64,000 nucleotides of DNA from Sphingobacteriales bacterium JAD_PAG50586_3 (GTDB lineage: Bacteria; Bacteroidota; Bacteroidia; CAMBQF01), in contig CP096135.1 in NCBI GenBank assembly GCA_023213195.1, positions 1,382,616-1,446,615 of the forward strand. The letters are read 5' to 3'. The translations under genes were made by a program, and so were the position numbers. Positions 53,662-64,000 of this stretch are shown piece after piece (within the stretch, counting starts at the first letter, position 1; each line of letters begins with the position of its first letter). Below the pieces are notes generated by a model that made no database searches, had not been told where the DNA came from, and was given only the letters and a program-made list of their open reading frames with translations.

Positions 53662-54505
53662 TTAATTCTGTATATCTGTTCTGGTAAATTTATAATGGGC
53701 TATGCCTAAAAACAGCCCTATGTGGCCCATCAAAACGGCAATAGATTGTACTACCATTTCTTTGGGTACGGGATTGTCAAATAAGTTGCGCCATATTACC
53801 ATATGGGTGGTAAATAAAAAGGGTTTTATCTTATCAAACAAGGGCACCTCCATAGTGCCAATAATAGTAAAGAGCACTATTACACTCATAGCCATTATTA
53901 TAGGCCCTATAGAGTTATCGGTAAAGCACGATAGCATTAGCGAGAATGATGCTACAAGCAGCAGACTTACAAAGGCTACACCAAACGCGCTAATAAAACG
54001 CCATATTACATCGCTTTCCCTAAGTATAACCAGCTCATCTGTTTTAAGTACCGTTAAATCGCCGGTGCCAAAAAACAGCAAGCCGCCGCCCAGTGCCAGT
54101 AAACCCAGCCAAAATAGCAAAGCAAAAACGTAAATGCCACCGGCTAAAATTTTGCTCCACAGTATTTCCCCGCGCGATACAGGGCGTGTTGCTAATAGCC
54201 TTATTGTTCCCGATGCCATTTCGCCACTTATCAAATCGCCGGTAACAAGGGCAACCAATAGGGGCATTTGTATAATTAATGTTTGCAATATGATAAAACA
54301 TACTCAGGCTGCCGTTTAATATTTCGCCCTGTATGGTAACGGTTTGCTCCAGCGCCTGAAATATAAAGCCTATGTAATTTTTTCCATCAACATACAATGC
54401 AAATTCTATAAGCATTATAATGGTTGTAATAGCTAAAAAACCTATGTAACTACGCGGCTTTGCCAGTATTTTATATAATTCGTTAAGCGTAAGTTTTACC
54501 AGCAT
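53662..54505 (-). CDS. ABC-2 type transporter permease (frameshift)
   Basis: About 281 residues with roughly six membrane helices. Start KLTLNELYKILAKPRSYIGFL; after the shift LLVALVTGDLISGEMASGTIRLLATRPVSR is the characteristic NosY/ABC-2 segment. One T too many in TTTT (plus A4 at 54295-54298) breaks the frame; removing it gives SMFIILQTLIIQMPL. Works with the ATPase encoded upstream. Substrate unknown. Confidence 0.83.
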
Positions 54506-54525
54506 AGCTTATTTATGGGTTATTT

Positions 54526-55416
54526 TTAAAAAATAATCTTCCAGCCTTTTTTATAGTCTAACGCGTAAAAGGCAATACCCTTATCATTTAACCAACTTAC
54601 TAAATGCGGAATTTCTTGCTTAGCCAGTTTTAGCGCAGCTACGTTATGCTCTATTCCGGTTAATGCGGCTACAAAACCAGATTGACCAATTTCAGTATTA
54701 AACTTTTCAGTATCGGCCAGCTCTACATAAACAACAACATCATCATCGCCCAAAAGGCTGTTTACCTTGCCTTGTGCAACTGCTTTGCCGTTGTTTATTA
54801 TAACCATACTATCGGCTATCAGTTGTATTTCTGATAATATGTGCGATGAAAGCACTACTGTTTTGCCCTCGTTTTTCAGTTTTAAAATCAACTCGCGAAG
54901 TTCTATTATACCTTGCGGGTCTAAGCCTGTTGTAGGCTCGTCAAGTATAATAAGTTTAGGGTTGTGTAGCAATGCTTGTGCAAGGCCCAGCCGCTGTTTC
55001 ATACCGTGGCTGTATGTTTTTACTTTATCATTTTCGCGTCCGCTAAGGCCCACTTGTTGTATTACTTCCTGTATTCTTTTTGCACCAATATTTTGGTTAT
55101 ACATTTTAGATAATAACCAAAGATTTTGCTTTGCACTTAGGTACAGGTAAAAGTCGGGTTTTTCAATTATAGAGCCTGTTTCAGCAAGAATATCATTCCT
55201 GCTTTTATCAAGGCTTTTGCCCATAATTTCTATACTGCCTGCGGTGGGTTTTATTAGCGATAAAAGCATGCGAAGCGTAGTGCTTTTGCCGGCGCCATTG
55301 GGGCCTAAAAAACCATAAATATCCCCTTCATCAATAGTTAAGGATATTCCGTCTACAGCTTTAAATGTGCCGTACTGCTTATAAACACTGTCAATATTAA
55401 CAATAGGTTGTGCCAT
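54526..55416 (-). CDS. ABC transporter ATP-binding protein (ABC-2/NosF type)
   Basis: About 296 residues. Walker A GPNGAGKST, Q-loop region TGSIIEKPDF, signature YSHGMKQRLGLAQ, Walker B LIILDEPTTGLDP and the H-loop in VVLSSHILSE are all present. A C-terminal extension of about 80 residues is typical of NosF/DrrA-like proteins. The start is MAQPIVNI at 55416. Paired with the permease downstream; ABC-2 pairs often export lipids, drugs or polysaccharides. Confidence 0.93.
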   Translation of the reverse strand: MAQPIVNIDSVYKQYGTFKAVDGISLTIDEGDIYGFLGPNGAGKSTTLRMLLSLIKPTAGSIEIMGKSLDKSRNDILAETGSIIEKPDFYLYLSAKQNLWLLSKMYNQNIGAKRIQEVIQQVGLSGRENDKVKTYSHGMKQRLGLAQALLHNPKLIILDEPTTGLDPQGIIELRELILKLKNEGKTVVLSSHILSEIQLIADSMVIINNGKAVAQGKVNSLLGDDDVVVYVELADTEKFNTEIGQSGFVAALTGIEHNVAALKLAKQEIPHLVSWLNDKGIAFYALDYKKGWKIIF

Positions 55417-55454
55417 TGCATACACAACATATCAATAAATTAAATGTTTAGCAC

Positions 55455-57023
55455 TTATAATGTTAAAGCTATCGCGTCAGCTACCCTTATCCCATCCATA
55501 GCGGCAGATACAATTCCTCCGGCATAGCCTGCGCCTTCGGCACATGGGTATAGGTTAGTTATTTGCGGGTGATGAAGACGCTCATTGTCGCGCGGAATGC
55601 GTACGGGCGATGAAGTACGGCTTTCGGGGGCATGCAATACAGCATCGTTAGTATAGTAGCCATTCATTTTTTTACCAAAGGCTTTAAAAGCCCCTTGTAA
55701 ACTCTGGTGTATGAAAGCCGGAAAAACCTCTCTTAAATCGGTGCTGATAATACCAGGTTGGTACGATGTGTCGGGTAGCGTAGAAGATACCTTTCCGTTA
55801 ACAAAATCTACCATGCGCTGGGCAGGCACCACTTGCGAGCCACCACCTAATGTACAGGCCAACTGCTCTACACTTTGTTGAAATTTCATAGCCATTAGCG
55901 GGCCGTGTTTTTCAAAGTCTTTCATGTCTTCCAACCTCACTTCAACCACAATGCCCGAATTGGCAAACGGGTTGTTGCGTTTAGAGGGCGACCAACCATT
56001 GGTTACTACCTCGCCCGGATTGGTGGCGCAAGGCGCTATAATGCCTCCCGGGCACATGCAGAAAGAATATACCCCACGGTCGTTTATCTGCTCTACTAAA
56101 CTGTACGATGCAGGCGGCAAATAATCGCCACGCAAATCGCAATGGTATTGTATACTGTCTATTAATGTTTGGGGATGTTCAGCACGCACACCCAAGGCAA
56201 ACGGCTTTGCTTCAATTAATATGCCACTGGTATGCAATAACTCAAACACATCTCTTGCTGAATGGCCTGTGGCTAATATCAACGCTTCAGTATCTATACT
56301 TACCGGCGAAGTATCGCCCTGCTGAACGATTGTCTTTTTAAGGGTATCGCCTTGCTTTTCTAAGCCAATTAACTTCGTGTTAAAGTGTACCTCACCACCA
56401 TGGGCAATAATACACTCGCGCATATCGGTAATAATTTTAGGCAGTTTGTTGGTGCCTATATGCGGGTGTGCTTCTACTAAAATATTTTCATCAGCCCCAT
56501 GAAAGACAAACGATTCTAATACCTTTTGAATGTTGCCGCGCTTGTTAGACCGGGTGTATAATTTACCGTCAGAGTATGTGCCTGCGCCCCCTTCGCCAAA
56601 GCAATAATTGCTTTCTGGGTTAACGGTTTGCATACGGTTAATGGCAGCTAAATCTCTACGGCGGTCTTTTACATTTTTGCCGCGTTCTATTACTATGGGT
56701 TTAAAGCCAAGTTCTAAAAAACGCAAGGCGGCAAACAAACCCGCCGGGCCTGCACCTATTATTATTACGGGCTTTGCGTTGGCTACGTTTTTATATGTGG
56801 GGTTGGTAATACGTTGCGGAATAACATCCTCATTTACAAAAGCTTCTACCCGTAAACTAACTTTTACCTGGCGGCGGCTGCGTGCATCTATAGAACGTTT
56901 AAGCACACGTATTTTTAAAACGTCAGAATTTTTTAACCCTAAATCGCCATAAATGCGTTGGGCAATAAACTCTTCGTTGGCGGCCTCTTCTGGCAGCAAA
57001 ACAATATCAAGCGTTTTATGCAT
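55455..57023 (-). CDS. FAD-dependent oxidoreductase, COG2509 (BaiN-like) family
   Basis: 522 residues. An N-terminal domain (VLKIRVLKRSIDARSR), FAD-binding GxGxxG in VIIGAGPAGLFAALRF, YCFGEGGAGTYSDGKLYTRS, LATGHSARDVFELL, YSFCMCPGGIIAPCA and the final GAGYAGGIVSAAMDGIRVAD. These are the hallmarks of the widely conserved but uncharacterised COG2509 dehydrogenases. It is a stand-alone gene. Confidence 0.88.
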   Translation of the reverse strand: MHKTLDIVLLPEEAANEEFIAQRIYGDLGLKNSDVLKIRVLKRSIDARSRRQVKVSLRVEAFVNEDVIPQRITNPTYKNVANAKPVIIIGAGPAGLFAALRFLELGFKPIVIERGKNVKDRRRDLAAINRMQTVNPESNYCFGEGGAGTYSDGKLYTRSNKRGNIQKVLESFVFHGADENILVEAHPHIGTNKLPKIITDMRECIIAHGGEVHFNTKLIGLEKQGDTLKKTIVQQGDTSPVSIDTEALILATGHSARDVFELLHTSGILIEAKPFALGVRAEHPQTLIDSIQYHCDLRGDYLPPASYSLVEQINDRGVYSFCMCPGGIIAPCATNPGEVVTNGWSPSKRNNPFANSGIVVEVRLEDMKDFEKHGPLMAMKFQQSVEQLACTLGGGSQVVPAQRMVDFVNGKVSSTLPDTSYQPGIISTDLREVFPAFIHQSLQGAFKAFGKKMNGYYTNDAVLHAPESRTSSPVRIPRDNERLHHPQITNLYPCAEGAGYAGGIVSAAMDGIRVADAIALTL

Positions 57024-57206
57024 TATGCTGCAAATTTCGTATAAAAATGCATATTTAACAATATGAAAATTAATTGTCTGATAATGTGTTGTATGGCTTT
57101 TTTACAATTGCGTATAGTGTTATCAATTTAAATGTTATGTAGCTTTACACTGAGCATGATAATCTAGGCACTCCATTGCCTTAAGAATTGAACACAGTTT
57201 ATTGGT
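57024..57206. other. Short intergenic gap before the ethylene-receptor-like kinase
   Basis: 183 nt between divergent genes. No recognised operator or hairpin was seen; no TAnnTTTG box was found close to the kinase start. Confidence 0.4.
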
Positions 57207-58765
57207 ATGGACGAACTTGCCCATTTTTTTAGTAATCTATTAGACACTACAGACTGGCCACCGCGCTGGCATTGTGGCAAATGGACTGATTTTCATGGAT
57301 GGTTATACATTATTAGCGACCTGTTAATTTGGGCTGCTTATTTTGCTATTCCCTGGTTATTTTGAAGTTTATTGCCAAAAAAAATAATGCAAAATTCCCC
57401 CGCTTATATTTTCTGTTTGCTGCCTTTATTTTGGCTTGCGGGCTTACCCATTTGCTAGATGCTGTTGCGTTTTGGTTTCCCATGTACCGCTTAAATGCAG
57501 TAGTGCTTTTTATTACGGCAATTATAAGCTGGTTAACGGTTTACTTTTTATTTAAAACCCTACCTACCGCCTTTTCTTTAAAAACTGCTACAGAGTTTGA
57601 GGCTGAAATAGCCCAAAAAAATGCAGTAAAAAATGAATTAAGGGCTTTGAATGAAAAGTTAGAATACATGGTTGCTGAACGTGCTGCCGAAATTTCTGAC
57701 TATAAGCATGCACTAGATGAGGCGGCAATTGTAGCCATTACCGACCAAAAAGGAGTTATTCTTCATGTAAATGATAACTTCTGTAAAATATCAAAGTATA
57801 GCAGAGAGGAATTACTTGGCCAAGACCACCGCATTCTCAATTCTCAATTTCACCCTAAAGAATATATACGCGATTTATGGGTTACTATAGCTAACGGTAA
57901 TATTTGGAAAGGTGAGCTTAAAAATAAAGCCAAAGATGGAACCATTTATTGGGTTGATACCACTATCGTACCTTTTTTAAATGAATATGGAAAGCCCTAT
58001 CAGTACATGGCTATCAGGGCTGATATAACTAAAAGAAAAGAGGCCGAAGAAAGAGAAAAAGCACTAATTGAAGAGCTATTGCGGAACAATAAAGATTTGC
58101 AACAGTTTTCATTTATAACATCACACAATTTACGTTCACCATTAGCAAATTTACAGGCCTTGCTTGAGGCATACAACAAAGACAACCCCGCAGATGATTT
58201 TAATAAGGTTATTATTGATGGGATGGCCACAGCTACCAGCCAATTAAGTAATACGTTGAGAGACCTTACCGATGTTGTAACCATACGCAGCAACATGGGT
58301 ATAAAGCGCGAACAATTAGATTTTGAAACAGAATTCAATAAAATTGTGCAAAGTGTTTCAAATATTATTGAAGAGTCTGGTGCCGATATTGTAACAGACT
58401 TTAGCAAAGTACCAGTTATAAACTATAACAAGGTTTATATGGAAAGTATATTGCTTAATTTGCTTACCAATGCTATTAAATATAAATCAACAAACAGGCC
58501 TTTAAAAATCAATATTACAACTACTGTTATTGATGGTTATGTTGTGCTTGAATTTGCCGATAATGGTTTAGGCTTGGATTTACAACGTGTTAAAGACCGT
58601 TTGTTTGGCTTGTATCAGCGTTTTCATGGTAATAAAGATAGTAAAGGCCTTGGGTTATATATTGTTAACTCTCAGGTAATTGCCTTAGGAGGTAAAATTG
58701 AAGTAGAAAGCGCACCTGACAGCGGCGCGAAATTTATCTTATACTTAACTAAAACACATGAGTAG
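57207..58765 (+). CDS. Ethylene-receptor-like sensor histidine kinase (frameshift)
   Basis: About 520 residues after correction of a T4 run (57360-57363, one T short). Three N-terminal helices carry the ETR1 ethylene-binding pattern: Asp38, Tyr45 and Pro49 in SDLLIWAAYFAIP, then Cys78 and His82 in FILACGLTHLL. Spacing (7, 4, 29, 4) equals ETR1 D25, Y32, P36, C65, H69, where Cys and His bind Cu(I). A PAS domain (about 125-235; AIVAITDQKGVILHVNDNF), HisKA-type SHNLRSPLANL and a HATPase (NLLTNAIKY, DNGLGLDL, SKGLGLYIVNSQ) follow. The stop overlaps a CheY-like gene. Related bacterial example: Synechocystis Slr1212 (SynEtr1). Confidence 0.88.
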
Positions 58766-59153
58766 AATTTTAATTGTTGACGACGATCCCATTATCCCGC
58801 TTTTGCTTAAAAGGCATATTGCTGCTATTGCTGATAGCTATGTTGTAAATGTTGCTGATAATGGCAAAAATGCAATTGACATGGTTGACGAATGCCAAAA
58901 GCAGATTGATTGCATACCTGATTTTATTTTTCTGGATATTAACATGCCATTAATGAATGGCTTTGACTTTTTAGAAGAATGGGGTACACGGAATATGGCT
59001 GAAGTAAAAAAACCTGGATAGTTATTCTTTCATCATCTGTAGACCCCCGCGACTAAGGAGCGTGCTGCAAGTTTTGGCAGCGTTGCCGAGTTTAGGAGCA
59101 AACCATTGATGTCTGAAGACGTAAGGGATTTGTTTGATAAATATTTGAATTAA
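58758..59153 (+). CDS. CheY-like single-domain response regulator (two frameshifts)
   Basis: About 131 residues consisting of a receiver domain only: acidic pocket in ILIVDDDPII, phospho-Asp in FIFLDINMPLMNG, Ser/Thr region after correction in VILSSSVDP and the Lys in FRSKPLMSED. A7 at 59006-59012 is one base short and ACTAAGG near 59054 has one base too many; correcting both gives a stop at 59153. Translation overlaps the kinase by 8 nt, so it is the likely phospho-acceptor of the ethylene-receptor-like kinase. With no output domain, its effect must pass through another protein. Confidence 0.85.
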
Positions 59154-59200
59154 AGTGACTAAAGTGATACTGTGTACTCACTACCCAATAAAACACTAAA

Positions 59201-59220
59201 CCCCCAACTTGCGCCGGGGG
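59201..59220 (+). terminator. Weak candidate terminator after the CheY-like gene
   Basis: CCCCC (59201-59205) pairs with GGGGG (59216-59220) with a 10-nt loop; only CTTAATG follows, without a proper T-run. Confidence 0.3.
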
Positions 59221-59276
59221 CTTAATGACCAAAACATCAATTATTAATAAATCCCTCGGTAAGAGGTAAGAGTACT

Positions 59277-59726
59277 CTATTGCAATAAAGATTTTACTAC
59301 TTCAGATACGGCTTTGTTATCAGATTTGCCTGCCAGTTGTTTGCTGGCAACGCCCATAACTTTGCCCATATCTTGCGGGCCTGTTGCTCCTACCTGTGCT
59401 ATTATAGCTTTAATGGCTTCGGTAAGTTCTTCGCGGCTCATTTGTGCGGGTAAATAGCGTTCTATAACATCGGCTTGCAGGCTTTCTACTTTGGCTAAAT
59501 CGTCGCGGCCCTGGGTAACATAAATCTCGGCGCTTTCGCGGCGTTGTTTAACCAGTTTTTGTAGCAATTTAATCTCGGCTTCTTCCGTCATTTGTTCCGA
59601 TGCGCCTTTCTCGGTTTGTGCAAGCAATAGGGCTGATTTTACAGCGCGCAAAGCATCTAAAGAGTCTTTGTCTTTTGCCAGCATGGCCGTTTTTATATCG
59701 GCGTTTATTTTTTCCGCAAGGGTCAT
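59277..59726 (-). CDS. yqeY: GatB/YqeY domain protein
   Basis: 149 residues of the YqeY family: LAEKINADIKTAMLAKDKD, RAVKSALLLAQTEKG, VKQRRESAEIYVTQGR and PQDMGKVMGVASKQLAGKSD. Its fold equals the C-terminal domain of GatB, and it may bind tRNA. It starts 2 nt after the corrected ftsZ end and is the last gene of the division cluster here. Confidence 0.9.
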   Translation of the reverse strand: MTLAEKINADIKTAMLAKDKDSLDALRAVKSALLLAQTEKGASEQMTEEAEIKLLQKLVKQRRESAEIYVTQGRDDLAKVESLQADVIERYLPAQMSREELTEAIKAIIAQVGATGPQDMGKVMGVASKQLAGKSDNKAVSEVVKSLLQ

Positions 59727-59728
59727 AA

Positions 59729-61317
59729 CTAGTCTACGTTATCGTGTAAAAATGGATTGTTACGCTTTAATTCGGCAGTTTTATCGTTGCCTTCTTCAAG
59801 GGTGTAACGCGATACCTGCGACTCGTCTGACTTAGGAGTATTACCTAACTCAACACCGGCGCGTACATAAGCCGGAACGTTTTCCATCTCGCTAAGGCCC
59901 GATGATGTTTTCAGCTTTAAGCTCATCTCGCGCAGGCGGTTAATGCGTGCACGGTTAAAGTTAGCATCGTCAACATCGTTACCGGCAGGGGCGTTGCTGT
60001 TATTGTTGTTTACAAACGTAGGCTCAAGGTCTTTCTTAAGTTCGTTTGATGGGTAAACGGTGCGCACCAATTTCTCAGTCCTTATTTTATCGTCAAAGTT
60101 AATATCAAGCGCTTTGATAGAAGTGTTTTTTCTTCTGCCGGAGGAGTGGTAAACAAATCGGTAACGGTTGCTTTAGTTGTAGGCTCAGCTACATCCCACG
60201 ATTGGGTAACAGGAGTTTCTTCTACTTTAGTATTTACCGTTGTAGTAGTTGTATTATTAGTTGTTGTTGCAGCGCTAAAACCGGTGTTCTCCGTTTTCAA
60301 TACGTGAACAATTTTCTCAGGCTGGTTGCGGTTTTCAAACGGCAATAGCGGAGCGGTGTTAAAGCCTGTAGCAATAACGGTAACATTAATTTTGTCGCCA
60401 AGCTCTGGGTCGTGGCCGGTACCAAAAATAATGTTTGCAGACATGCCTGCTTCTTCTTGTACAAAGTCTGATATTTCAGAAACTTCGTCCATAGTAGCTT
60501 CAATATCGCCCGCAGTAATATTTAATAAAATGTGCTTAGCACCTTTAATGATGTTATCGTTTAATAGAGGAGATGACAAGGCTGATTCTATAGCACGTGC
60601 AGCACGGTTTTCACCTTCTGCAGATGCCGAGCCCATAATGGCTGAACCACCTTTGTTCATTACCGTACGTACGTCTTCAAAGTCAACGTTTATGTAACCG
60701 GTAACGGTTATAATTTCGGCAATGCCTTTAGCTGCAGTTGTTAATACATTATCTGCTTGTGCAAAGGCGTTAGATAACGATAGGTTACCGTACATCTCAC
60801 GAAGTTTATCGTTAGATATAACAAGTAACGTATCAACCGCGTTGCGCATTTCTTCAATGCCTTCTTCGGCTTGTTGGCGGCGGCGTTTACCTTCAAAGCT
60901 AAAAGGTAACGTAACAATGCCAACAGTTAAAATGCCCATATCGCGTGCTGTTTGCGCAACAATAGGTGCGGCACCTGTACCGGTGCCACCGCCCATACCT
61001 GCAGTAATAAAAACCATTTTAGTGGTTTCGCCCAGCAACGCTTTTATGTCTTCAATATTTTCTACGGCAGCATCTTTACCCACTTGTGGTAAAGAGCCTG
61101 CACCGCGGCCTTCGGTTAGTGTAGAGCCTAATTGTACCTTAGCAGGTATTGGGCTAAAGTCTAGGGCTTGTGCGTCGGTGTTGCACACAACAAAGTCAAC
61201 ACCTTTAATTCCCTGACGAAACATGTGGTTAACAGCATTGCTGCCACCGCCGCCTACGCCAATCACCTTAATGATTGATGCGTATTCTTTTGGAAGATTA
61301 AATCGAATAGTTTCCAT
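59729..61317 (-). CDS. ftsZ: Cell division protein FtsZ (frameshift)
   Basis: About 529 residues after correction. Tubulin-like GTPase that forms the Z-ring. GTP-binding text IKVIGVGGGGSNAVNHM and GGGTGTGAAP, T7-loop region near GIAEIITVTGYINVDFEDVR and GTGHDPELGDKINVTVIATGF. A long Thr-rich linker (about residues 330-390) follows, and the C-terminal peptide NNPFLHDNVD. The A6 run (plus T6, 60125-60130) is one base short; without the fix the conserved tail appears as a separate frame. The linker and tail are longer than in E. coli FtsZ (383 residues). Confidence 0.95.
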
Positions 61318-61364
61318 TATTTATTGATGTTTTGATGGGTTGGATTTCACTGTAAAATTCAAGG

Positions 61365-62671
61365 TTATTTCTCTTCGTCTGCAAGCCAGTTCTCAGCTTT
61401 TTTAAACAGGTTTTCAAAAAAGCTTCCTTTCTTGTCAGGGTTAGAGTGGGTTGTAATTTTTTCCTCTTTAATAGGTGCTTCAACAACAACCTGCTCAATA
61501 GGCATGTTTGCATACGTTTTCTCTGTACGCTCCATGCCTTTAATTAATAAGCCTACACCGGTTGCAAACATTGGGCTGGTCATTTCATCAACCATGCCTT
61601 TTGCAAGATGCTCGTTAGGGTAGCCAATGCGTGTAGCCATGCCGGTAGTATATTCAAACAACTGTGGCAAATTTTTCATTTGCGCGCCGCCGCCTGTTAC
61701 CACAATGCCAGCAATAAGCTTACGTTTAAAGCCTGAATTTTTTATTTCGTAATCAACATACTCTATAATCTCTGTCATACGGGCTTGTATAATGCGCGCC
61801 AAATTGAATTGCGAAATTTCTTTTGGTTCGCGGCCACGTAAGCCGGGTATAGATATCATTTGGTTCTCTAAATTCTCGTGCGCAAACGCAGAACCGAATT
61901 TTACTTTTAATGCTTCGGCTTGCAGTTTTATAATGCTGCAACCTTCCTGCACATCTTCGGTAATAACGTTGCCACCAAATGGTATTACAGCCGTGTGGCG
62001 AATGATGCCATCCTGGAAAATGGCAATATCAGTAGTGCCGCCGCCTATATCAACAAGCACAATGCCTGCTTCTTTTCTTCTTCACTTAGCACAGCTTCTG
62101 ACGATGCCAGAGGCTCAAGAATAATTTCAGACACATCAAGGCCCGCCTTCTCAACACATTTTTTAATGTTGTTGGCGGCAGTAACCTGGCCTGTAATTAC
62201 GTGGAAGTTAGCCTCTAAACGCACGCCCGACATGCCAATAGGTTTGGTAATGCCCTGCTCGTTATCAATAATATATTCCTGCGGAAGTACATGTATAATT
62301 TCTTCGCCCGGTTGCATAACCAGCTTGTACATATCTTCAATAAGCATGTCAATATCCGGTTGGCTAATCTCATCATCGTGGCGGTTACGTATACGTATGC
62401 CGCGGTGCTGGTAGCTGCGTATGTGCTGGCCTGCAATGCCTACGTTAACCACTTTAATGTCTACCCCGCTGCGGTTACTTGCTTCTTCAACAGCGCGTTT
62501 AATAGACTCTACAGTGCTTATGATGTTGGTAACAACACCACGCGATACACCTACCGAATCGGTTTTGCCATAACCCAAAATTTCTACTTTGCCGTGTTCT
62601 GTTCTACGACCAACAATACAAGCAATTTTGGTGGTGCCAATGTCTAAGCTGGCTACAATTTCATTTTCCAT
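61365..62671 (-). CDS. ftsA: Cell division protein FtsA (frameshift)
   Basis: About 436 residues. Actin-like protein that tethers FtsZ to the membrane. Blocks are VASLDIGTTKIACIVGRR, AGQHIRSYQHRG, VDIGGGTTDIAIF, GIVVTGGGAQMKNLP and the C-terminal amphipathic segment ENLFKKAENWLADEEK. One A is missing in the A4 run (plus T4, 62073-62076); correcting it joins SEEEK to EAGIVLVDIGGG. It lies 3 nt after ftsQ. Confidence 0.95.
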
Positions 62672-62674
62672 GGC

Positions 62675-63478
62675 TTACAATTTTTTAGTGCACACTACTT
62701 GGTTTTTAAATTTCAGGTTGATGGTTTGGTATACGTTAAGCGTGCCTGCACTTACCGCGTGCTTGTAAAATGCGCGCAGCTTAACAAATTTTTCCTGCAT
62801 ATCGTCGGCGGTGCCAAATAAAACAAGGCCGTTGCCTATTTTGGGTACCAGGTTAATCTCGCTATTGGGGGTTACATACAACTGGTCTATTTGCGAGTTC
62901 CACAAACTATCGGACCCCATAAATTTTGCCATGTTGTACAAATCATCCAGTATTGATGTTTTCTTCAGTTTCTCATCAGCTTCAATACCCTTAACACCAA
63001 ATTTGTAAAAGGCAGAGTAGCCCTCTGTTATTAAACCCGATGCAATGGGTACGTGCGCGGTGTAGCGGTCGCTAAGGGGCATAAGCTCGCCTTCATCATC
63101 TATGTAGTAACTATCACCGGTGTAGGTTATGATGCGCAAAATAGGTTGGCGCTCTTTCACCGTCATGGTTACTTTTCCGTTCATTGATGTAAACACTTGC
63201 GCGCTTTGTACATCGGCACGCTGTTTCAAAATGTCTTCCAGCTCTGCAACATTGATAGAGCTTAACCGTTCGCCCTGCAACGCAATGCGTTTATCGGCAA
63301 ACTGCTGTGTAATAACGGTACTGTCTAAAAAGCGGTTATCTACGTTACTGCGTTCAATATTTATTTTAACCGATGAGCATAGCGCAGCATGGCGTTGGTT
63401 GTTGGTAAAGGCCAACAAAAACACCAGGGCGGCACAAGCCGCTACCCAAGCTGATATGTTCAAAATTCGTTTTAACAC
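62675..63478 (-). CDS. ftsQ: Cell division protein FtsQ/DivIB
   Basis: 267 residues: short basic start, one membrane helix (ILNISAWVAACAALVFLLAF), a POTRA-like domain (SINVAELEDILKQRADVQSAQVFTSMNGKVTMTVKERQPILRI in part) and the FtsQ beta domain (YYIDDEGELMPLS, VPIASGLITEG). The start is GTG at 63478, overlapping the TAG stop of murC (TAGTG), indicating coupling. Confidence 0.92.
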   Translation of the reverse strand: MLKRILNISAWVAACAALVFLLAFTNNQRHAALCSSVKINIERSNVDNRFLDSTVITQQFADKRIALQGERLSSINVAELEDILKQRADVQSAQVFTSMNGKVTMTVKERQPILRIITYTGDSYYIDDEGELMPLSDRYTAHVPIASGLITEGYSAFYKFGVKGIEADEKLKKTSILDDLYNMAKFMGSDSLWNSQIDQLYVTPNSEINLVPKIGNGLVLFGTADDMQEKFVKLRAFYKHAVSAGTLNVYQTINLKFKNQVVCTKKL

Positions 63479-64000
63479 TAAACGCCGTGTTTGTTAGTTA
63501 GCATTCGTTTTATCGGTTCAACCAGTGTATCTATATCGCCGGCACCCAGCGTTACAATCACCTCGTTGTTTTCTTTTTCTAATTCGCTCACCAAATCTTT
63601 TTTGGTTGATAAGCGTTTGTTGTTGCTCTTCATCATACCCAGTAACATACCAGATGTTACCCCTCAATAGGTAATTCCCTTGCAGGGTATATGTCAAGCA
63701 AAATAGCTTCGTCCAGCATGTCTAAACTCTGCGCAAAGCCTTGTGCAAAATCGCGGGTGCGGGTAAAAAGGTGGGGTTGAAAAATGCCCGTTATTTTTTT
63801 ATCCGGGTATAACATCCTCACCGATTTAATTGCCGCGTCTAACTCGCTGGGGTGGTGGGCGTAATCGTCTATAAAAACTATTTGCGGTGTGCGCAAAATG
63901 TATTCAAAACGGCGCTTAGCACCTTTAAAGCTTTGCAGGGCTTCTTTAATACTAGTAAAGTTGGCACCGGCAAGGCTTGCTGCTGCGCATGCCGCAACGG
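63478..64000 (-). CDS. murC: UDP-N-acetylmuramate-L-alanine ligase, partial (frameshift)
   Basis: Only the C-terminal part (about 174 residues) is in the window; the start lies beyond the right edge. IKEALQSFKGAKRRFEYI, the ligase signature IDDYAHHPSEL, GIFQPHLFTRTRDFAQGF and ILLDIYPARELPIEG identify MurC. The G4 run (plus C4, 63660-63663) is one base short; after correction the tail continues VTSGMLLGMMKSNNKRL to TAG at 63478. Confidence 0.95.

Follow-up and report, generated by a model that had tools for sequence, protein, structure and literature searches.

The window, by which we mean the whole stretch of 64,000 nucleotides that was analysed, carries on its forward strand a histidine kinase gene starting at 57207 and, directly behind it, a gene for a receiver-only response regulator. 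The kinase is encoded in two pieces. The first (57207..57362) begins with M1, reads through to F52 and comprises the N-terminal C23 and the first membrane helix, in a frame that differs from the rest. The second (57329..58765), whose ORF start is mechanical, encodes helices 2 and 3 of an ethylene-binding domain, followed by PAS, HisKA and HATPase domains. The frame break between them lies at about 57360; the ORF of the second piece is open for 478 codons to 58765 with its motifs kept. The receiver ORF (58758..59153, forward strand) overlaps the kinase gene, stop codon included, by 8 bases, in agreement with an earlier note on this DNA, which had described an overlap with a receiver-only regulator. 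Two frame breaks, near 59010 and 59055, interrupt the receiver: the middle part (59015-59056) is read in a different frame, after which the first frame resumes to 59153. The extent given for the pair in the earlier note, up to 59153, was right, but the span is not a single open frame, as the receiver is broken twice. Residues of the kinase are numbered after an intact relative, P0002 (519 aa), to which each piece was aligned separately and which is 79% identical to the window protein over the searched region.

The N-terminus was compared with Pfam. The second kinase piece matched ETR1_N (PF25487) with 71.5 bits (E 7.2e-20, cut-off 27), which is far above chance; the match (57341..57577, forward strand) covers profile positions 18-96. 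The first piece alone scored 24.6 bits, below the 27-bit cut-off, while the intact P0002 reached 100.7 bits and AzoEtr1, the receptor of Azospirillum brasilense, 132.0 bits. This profile search had been set beforehand as the check on the proposed membership in the ethylene-receptor family, which it bore out: no family other than ETR1_N was returned at E <= 0.001, and an unrelated three-helix family could be ruled out. Three membrane helices had also been proposed, and these were supported by hydropathy, with 19-residue windows peaking at starts 39, 69 and 98 of P0002, and by a predicted model of the ethylene domain of a relative (L029), which showed long helices at 29-58, 65-88 and 94-124 (mean pLDDT 75.4, pTM 0.65).

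Seven residues of the kinase, spread over the two reading frames, correspond to residues of ETR1 at the spacing found there. D38, Y45, I48 and P49 in the first frame match ETR1 D25, Y32, I35 and P36; I75, C78 and H82 in the second, the last two within the motif C-G-L-T-H, match I62, C65 and H69. For ETR1, residues 1-125 were aligned. The earlier note had listed six of these matches, including the C-G-x-T-H motif, and was right in all six; it overlooked I48, the counterpart of I35. The residues essential in ETR1 for ethylene binding are named in PMC6586836, which also gives Cu(I) as the cofactor. Sequences of PDB chains gave no match to the ethylene domain better than E 0.72, and a Foldseek search with the predicted ethylene domain of a relative found no PDB match at E <= 0.001. 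This fits a fold without a solved example and is neutral on kinship. The sequence features by which bacterial ethylene receptors are recognised were all found, except for the output-linked basic residue considered below. We therefore regard the gene at 57207, as judged from its sequence, as a candidate bacterial ethylene receptor and not as a new kind of receptor.

The kinase core follows in the order PAS-HisKA-HATPase, as had been noted before. The PAS families and HATPase_c (58439..58753, forward strand; N box NLLTNAIKY, G boxes DNGLGL and SKGLGLY) exceeded their Pfam cut-offs. HisKA (58103..58291, forward strand), the dimerisation and phosphoacceptor region with the motif SHNLRSPL and the His codon at 58124, scored 23.3 bits, below the cut-off of 26.9. 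H, N and G boxes are all present and the receiver is adjacent, as expected for a two-component system; the first receiver piece scored 49.7 bits in Pfam. In its kinase part, a predicted model of P0002 (24-row alignment; mean pLDDT 76.6, pTM 0.42) resembles solved histidine kinases (4u7o, TMt 0.78).

The class of the PAS domain (57701..58057, forward strand) was absent from the earlier note. When compared with PDB sequences, its best match was MmoS (3ewk; 188.7 bits, E 2.5e-55), and further matches were Aer (81.0 and 71.8 bits) and NifL (66.0 and 64.7 bits). The domain keeps H, W, N and R (first bases of the codons at 57827, 57878, 57923 and 58016), corresponding to Aer H53, W70, N85 and R115. 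These four are among the residues that surround the flavin in Aer, and counterparts in MmoS are given for H53, N85 and R115 (PMC9668731). The same paper puts the flavin potential of MmoS and Aer near -290 mV. The Trp is described as the main determinant of FAD binding, together with the His and the Asn (PMC10468136). In our alignments, the counterpart of Aer R57 is Asn in the window and likewise in MmoS. By its sequence, the PAS domain thus belongs to the FAD redox class (MmoS/Aer/NifL) and is a predicted FAD binder.

Frame breaks occur in other genes of the window as well. FtsA is a core division gene; in the window (61365-62671) it is split at about 62050 into two ORFs, both matching FtsA families, whereas in both of two genus-mates (G001 and G002) the corresponding stretch, at 97% identity, has 440 open codons. 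An ABC permease (53662-54505) is split in the window, with 213 codons open, and has 281 open codons in G002; the copy in G001 ends at the contig end. A broken FtsA points to indel errors in the assembly. Since the receiver breaks twice more, and since FtsA is split here yet open in the genus-mates, the kinase frame break is probably an assembly error, and the same probably holds for the breaks in the receiver. Other broken genes of this genome should be read with caution, given the split FtsA. FtsZ (59729-61317) seems to have lost its C-terminal tail by a frame change: a tail-like end, NPFLHDNVD, stands in the next ORF, for which no Pfam match was obtained.

The closest known counterpart in layout is AzoEtr1 of Azospirillum brasilense, which binds ethylene directly, whose disruption alters biofilm formation and root colonisation, and whose gene is followed, with a small overlap, by that of the receiver-only protein AzoRRetr1 (PMC11819568). 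We read the AzoEtr1 ORF of strain Sp7 at L024:2998-4575 (525 aa). Like the window pair, it combines an N-terminal ethylene domain, one PAS, a kinase and an overlapping receiver-only gene, and its seven residues (D35, Y42, I45, P46, I72, C75 and H79) match the window set. It belongs to another phylum, and the identity of the ethylene domains is about one third. Its PAS scores best as PAS_4 and gave no match to the FAD-type PAS, in contrast to the FAD-class PAS of the window, and it has Lys98 where the window has Leu. SynEtr1 (Slr1212) of Synechocystis is described as an ethylene receptor that signals by phosphorelay and itself takes up a second input (PMC11819568); this second input is light, via a phytochrome-like domain, whereas in the window it would be a predicted flavin PAS. 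ETR1 of Arabidopsis shares the seven binding residues and their spacing, but has a GAF domain beside the membrane part, an output through CTR1 and N-terminal C4/C6 disulfides, where the window has one conserved Cys23. MmoS of Methylococcus capsulatus (3ewk), Aer and NifL share the PAS class and its FAD contacts with the window kinase; the available parts of their descriptions mention no ethylene domain, which the window kinase possesses.

In Bacteroidota, the ethylene domain has a wide but patchy distribution. Within the window's genus it was found in one of three genomes, the window's own, and the family and order sets consist of the same three genomes. Among 396 genomes of the window's class, drawn evenly from a larger group, 16 had a match above the cut-off and 20 at E <= 0.001, the window's own included. 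Two class genomes (G045 and G376) contained two matches each. A scan of named genome contigs yielded 243 relatives, the best 80 of which all carry Bacteroidota names, with a few genomes contributing more than one locus and with genera including Ferruginibacter, Puia, Niastella, Flavisolibacter, Mucilaginibacter and Dyadobacter. All seven residues were present in 65 of these 80 loci; in the 15 exceptions, I35 was replaced by Met (9) or Leu (3), P36 by Ser (1) and D25 by Glu (2). Cys and His were found in 80/80, partly by construction, as one of the two scan patterns contains both. Of the closest proteins besides the window's own, which were found without that pattern, 98 of 119 had all seven residues and 119 of 119 had Cys and His, the exceptions being I35 replaced by Met or Leu, two cases of Asp replaced by Asn and two truncated proteins.

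A Cys before helix 1 (C23) was found in 76 of the 80 loci, and AzoEtr1 has C20. Since C4 and C6 of ETR1 make dimer disulfides in the model of PMC6586836, C23 may, by analogy, be the bacterial counterpart of these cysteines. In most of the Bacteroidota domains seen, the segment before helix 1 (57207-57300 in the window) has the form W-P-P-R-W-H-C-G-x-W, while Azospirillum, Pseudanabaena and others have P-H-G-x-C; the cysteine of the Bacteroidota motif may form the dimer disulfide.

A tree was built from 40 domains. In it, the window domain joined those of P0002 and P0003 (100/98), and these fell within a clade of Bacteroidota type that comprised 35 rows (100/99). Outside this clade were Azospirillum, Pseudanabaena, Novosphingobium, Blastomonas and G071, a genome of the window's class; the outer order is unsure owing to long branches. 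The ethylene-binding site had been called 'plant-type' in the earlier note. This holds for the seven binding residues only, as the Bacteroidota-type domains form a clade separate from those of Azospirillum, Pseudanabaena and the sphingomonads, in a tree that has no plant row. Two ethylene-domain kinases lie on plasmids typed as conjugative and mobilizable, namely plasmid p2 of Novosphingobium sp. ES2-1 (L026) and a plasmid of Blastomonas sp. RAC04 (L027); in the former, a response regulator overlaps the kinase.

We also asked how constant the partners of the ethylene domain are. A receiver ORF lay directly downstream of the kinase in 33 of 76 assessable loci (the 80 minus four at contig ends or unclosed), with 132-206 aa by the earliest start, and in 12 of these 33 it overlapped the kinase by that same start. 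In the other 43 no receiver was found directly downstream; these counts use a profile grown from the window receiver, which may miss distant receivers. All four FAD contacts were present in nine of the best 80 of 243 related loci and in 43 of the 120 closest proteins, with the window's own counted, and five of the eight assessable loci among these nine had the receiver. No match to the window-type PAS was found in 53 of the 80 loci. Given these numbers, the ethylene domain does not always come with an FAD-type PAS; judging from the contact residues, this PAS is a recurrent but not universal partner. The layout of the window is repeated in a metagenome-assembled genome of Puia (L054), with an ethylene domain, one FAD-type PAS and a kinase (531 aa), and a receiver gene 20 bases downstream. 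Flavitalea sp. BT771 (L060) and Terrimonas pollutisoli H1YJ31 (L051) likewise have an FAD-type PAS and an adjacent receiver; both proteins are longer than that of the window.

One position of the third helix sets the window apart. For ETR1, a pairing is predicted between D25 and K91, a helix-3 residue involved in output that is equated with K98 of AzoEtr1 (PMC11819568). AzoEtr1 K98 aligns with window position 101, which is Leu. The link of this position to K91 rests on that paper, and a pairwise alignment with the ETR1 sequence placed T88 there. Position 101 is Arg or Lys in 192 of 199 relatives and Leu in seven (80 loci and 119 proteins, some of them in both sets). The output-linked basic residue of helix 3, a feature drawn from one paper and not a formal family rule, is thus replaced by Leu101 in the window. 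In two close relatives, P0003 and P0004, the essential Asp is replaced by Asn and the helix-3 base by Leu; they are the only two of the 199 with this Asn, and both belong to the seven with Leu. The two cases look like one event, but they hint that the acid and the base may vary jointly in the window branch, where the ethylene site may be drifting. Going by their residues, P0003 and P0004 are predicted to be natural variants that do not bind ethylene.

The gene pair sits in a stretch (57035..59187, assigned to neither strand) that is absent from the two genus-mates. When compared by blastn, the homology of the window to G001 and G002 ended at 57034 and resumed at 59188, so that 2153 bases here face 88-89 bases there. 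The flanking genes, for a FAD-dependent oxidoreductase and YqeY, are adjacent to each other in both genus-mates. The GC content of the pair is 36.5% compared to 42.0% in the window, and only 2 of 311 sliding windows were lower, those overlapping the pair included. Horizontal transfer is the probable origin of the pair, and we favour it over the alternative, loss in both sampled genus-mates. Of the direct-repeat families, 20 of 26 were inspected, together with 23 inverted pairs, and none of these marked both ends of the insert (57035 and 59187). Positions 57026 and 59063 share a 12-nt near-repeat, probably by chance. An operon with the flanking genes was ruled out, as both neighbours are on the opposite strand and are adjacent in relatives without the pair. 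The neighbouring oxidoreductase (55455-57023) is 95% identical to metagenome proteins, and its nearest organism-named matches are from Chitinophagaceae (63-65%), which hints at the lineage of this genome. A scan of ten ORFs in 53662-63998 brought up no plant- or copper-related gene. A link to ACC metabolism was looked for without success: no ACC deaminase in the genome scored above the cut-off, the model matched only a sub-cut-off fragment, and weak matches to this model also occurred in 6 of 14 control genomes.

What the DNA itself shows is the order of the domains, the presence of the seven residues and of the kinase boxes, the class of the PAS, a receiver gene that overlaps the kinase, and a site that is empty in both genus-mates. 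We propose, with somewhat better than even confidence, that the kinase senses copper(I)-bound ethylene and the redox state of a flavin jointly, and that the two together set phosphotransfer to the downstream receiver. By analogy with AzoEtr1 and ETR1, Cys78 and His82 would hold Cu(I), and ethylene would bind at this site. The PAS domain, like those of MmoS, Aer and NifL, would bind FAD and report the redox or oxygen state of the cell. The signal would pass by phosphorelay to the lone receiver, again as in AzoEtr1 and ETR1, and the receiver would act through protein contact, because no output domain was seen. That both inputs jointly gate the kinase is the least certain step. Counting against the proposal are Leu101, the Asn of P0003 and P0004, the many related loci that have no FAD-type PAS or no receiver directly downstream, the low HisKA score, the frame breaks in both genes, and the negative results for ACC deaminase and for plant- or copper-related neighbours. 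The output path from a lone receiver, called unknown in the earlier note, can be given a sharper outline: AzoEtr1, with the same kind of partner, affects biofilm formation and root colonisation (PMC11819568). Most likely, the system works like AzoEtr1 with an added flavin redox input. A broader version of this proposal falls somewhat short of an even chance; here, the two genes would form a cassette that spreads among Bacteroidota by horizontal transfer, the Cu(I)-ethylene site and the flavin PAS would act as a coincidence detector, and the output would be rewired through Leu101 in the window branch.

Alternatively, ethylene alone could control the kinase, with the PAS serving, as perhaps in AzoEtr1, as a linker that is structural or free of flavin. 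The lack of a match to the FAD-type PAS in AzoEtr1 and in the 53 loci, and the rarity of all four contacts (9/80), are in line with this, but conservation of H, W, N and R and a score of 188.7 bits against MmoS would be unlikely for a mere linker, and we consider a plain receptor unlikely, if the foremost of the alternatives. Less probable still, the Cys/His site could serve a sensor of copper or redox state for which ethylene is not the natural ligand. Such a sensor would agree with Cu(I) being the cofactor of ETR1 (PMC6586836), with the involvement of MmoS in copper-dependent regulation (according to the title of a reference in PMC9668731) and with a genome that has no ACC deaminase above the cut-off. 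However, I35, P36 and I62, which are essential for ethylene binding yet not named as copper ligands in the available part of PMC6586836, are kept here too, and no copper gene was found in the ten neighbouring ORFs. That the pair is a dead pseudogene system with genuine frame breaks is very improbable: one break in the kinase, two in the receiver and a possibly relaxed position 101 would fit it, but the rest of the kinase is open with intact motifs, and the splitting of FtsA and the ABC permease here, against open copies in the genus-mates (for the permease, in G002), makes indels a trait of the assembly.

By the account of PMC11819568, specific ethylene receptors of bacteria have been tied to physiology in two cases, SynEtr1 of a cyanobacterium and AzoEtr1 of a proteobacterium. 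Among the matches listed from the open-licence literature, we found no study of a Bacteroidota ethylene receptor or of ethylene binding in this phylum, and no report that combines an ethylene domain with a FAD PAS. The analysis adds three points to the earlier note: the FAD-class PAS, which AzoEtr1 lacks, the 2.15-kb AT-rich stretch absent in genus-mates and the Leu at the helix-3 output position. Bacteroidota are thus a third phylum with a large set of candidate receptors, some of them from organisms with rhizosphere or soil names, and the intact P0002 allows direct testing of both the ethylene and the flavin claims, the former by an assay that has served for AzoEtr1. If functional, the FAD-type PAS would let a single protein couple the sensing of a hormone to redox or oxygen state. 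If the Bacteroidota relatives do bind ethylene, a further major group of environmental bacteria would use this gas as a signal.
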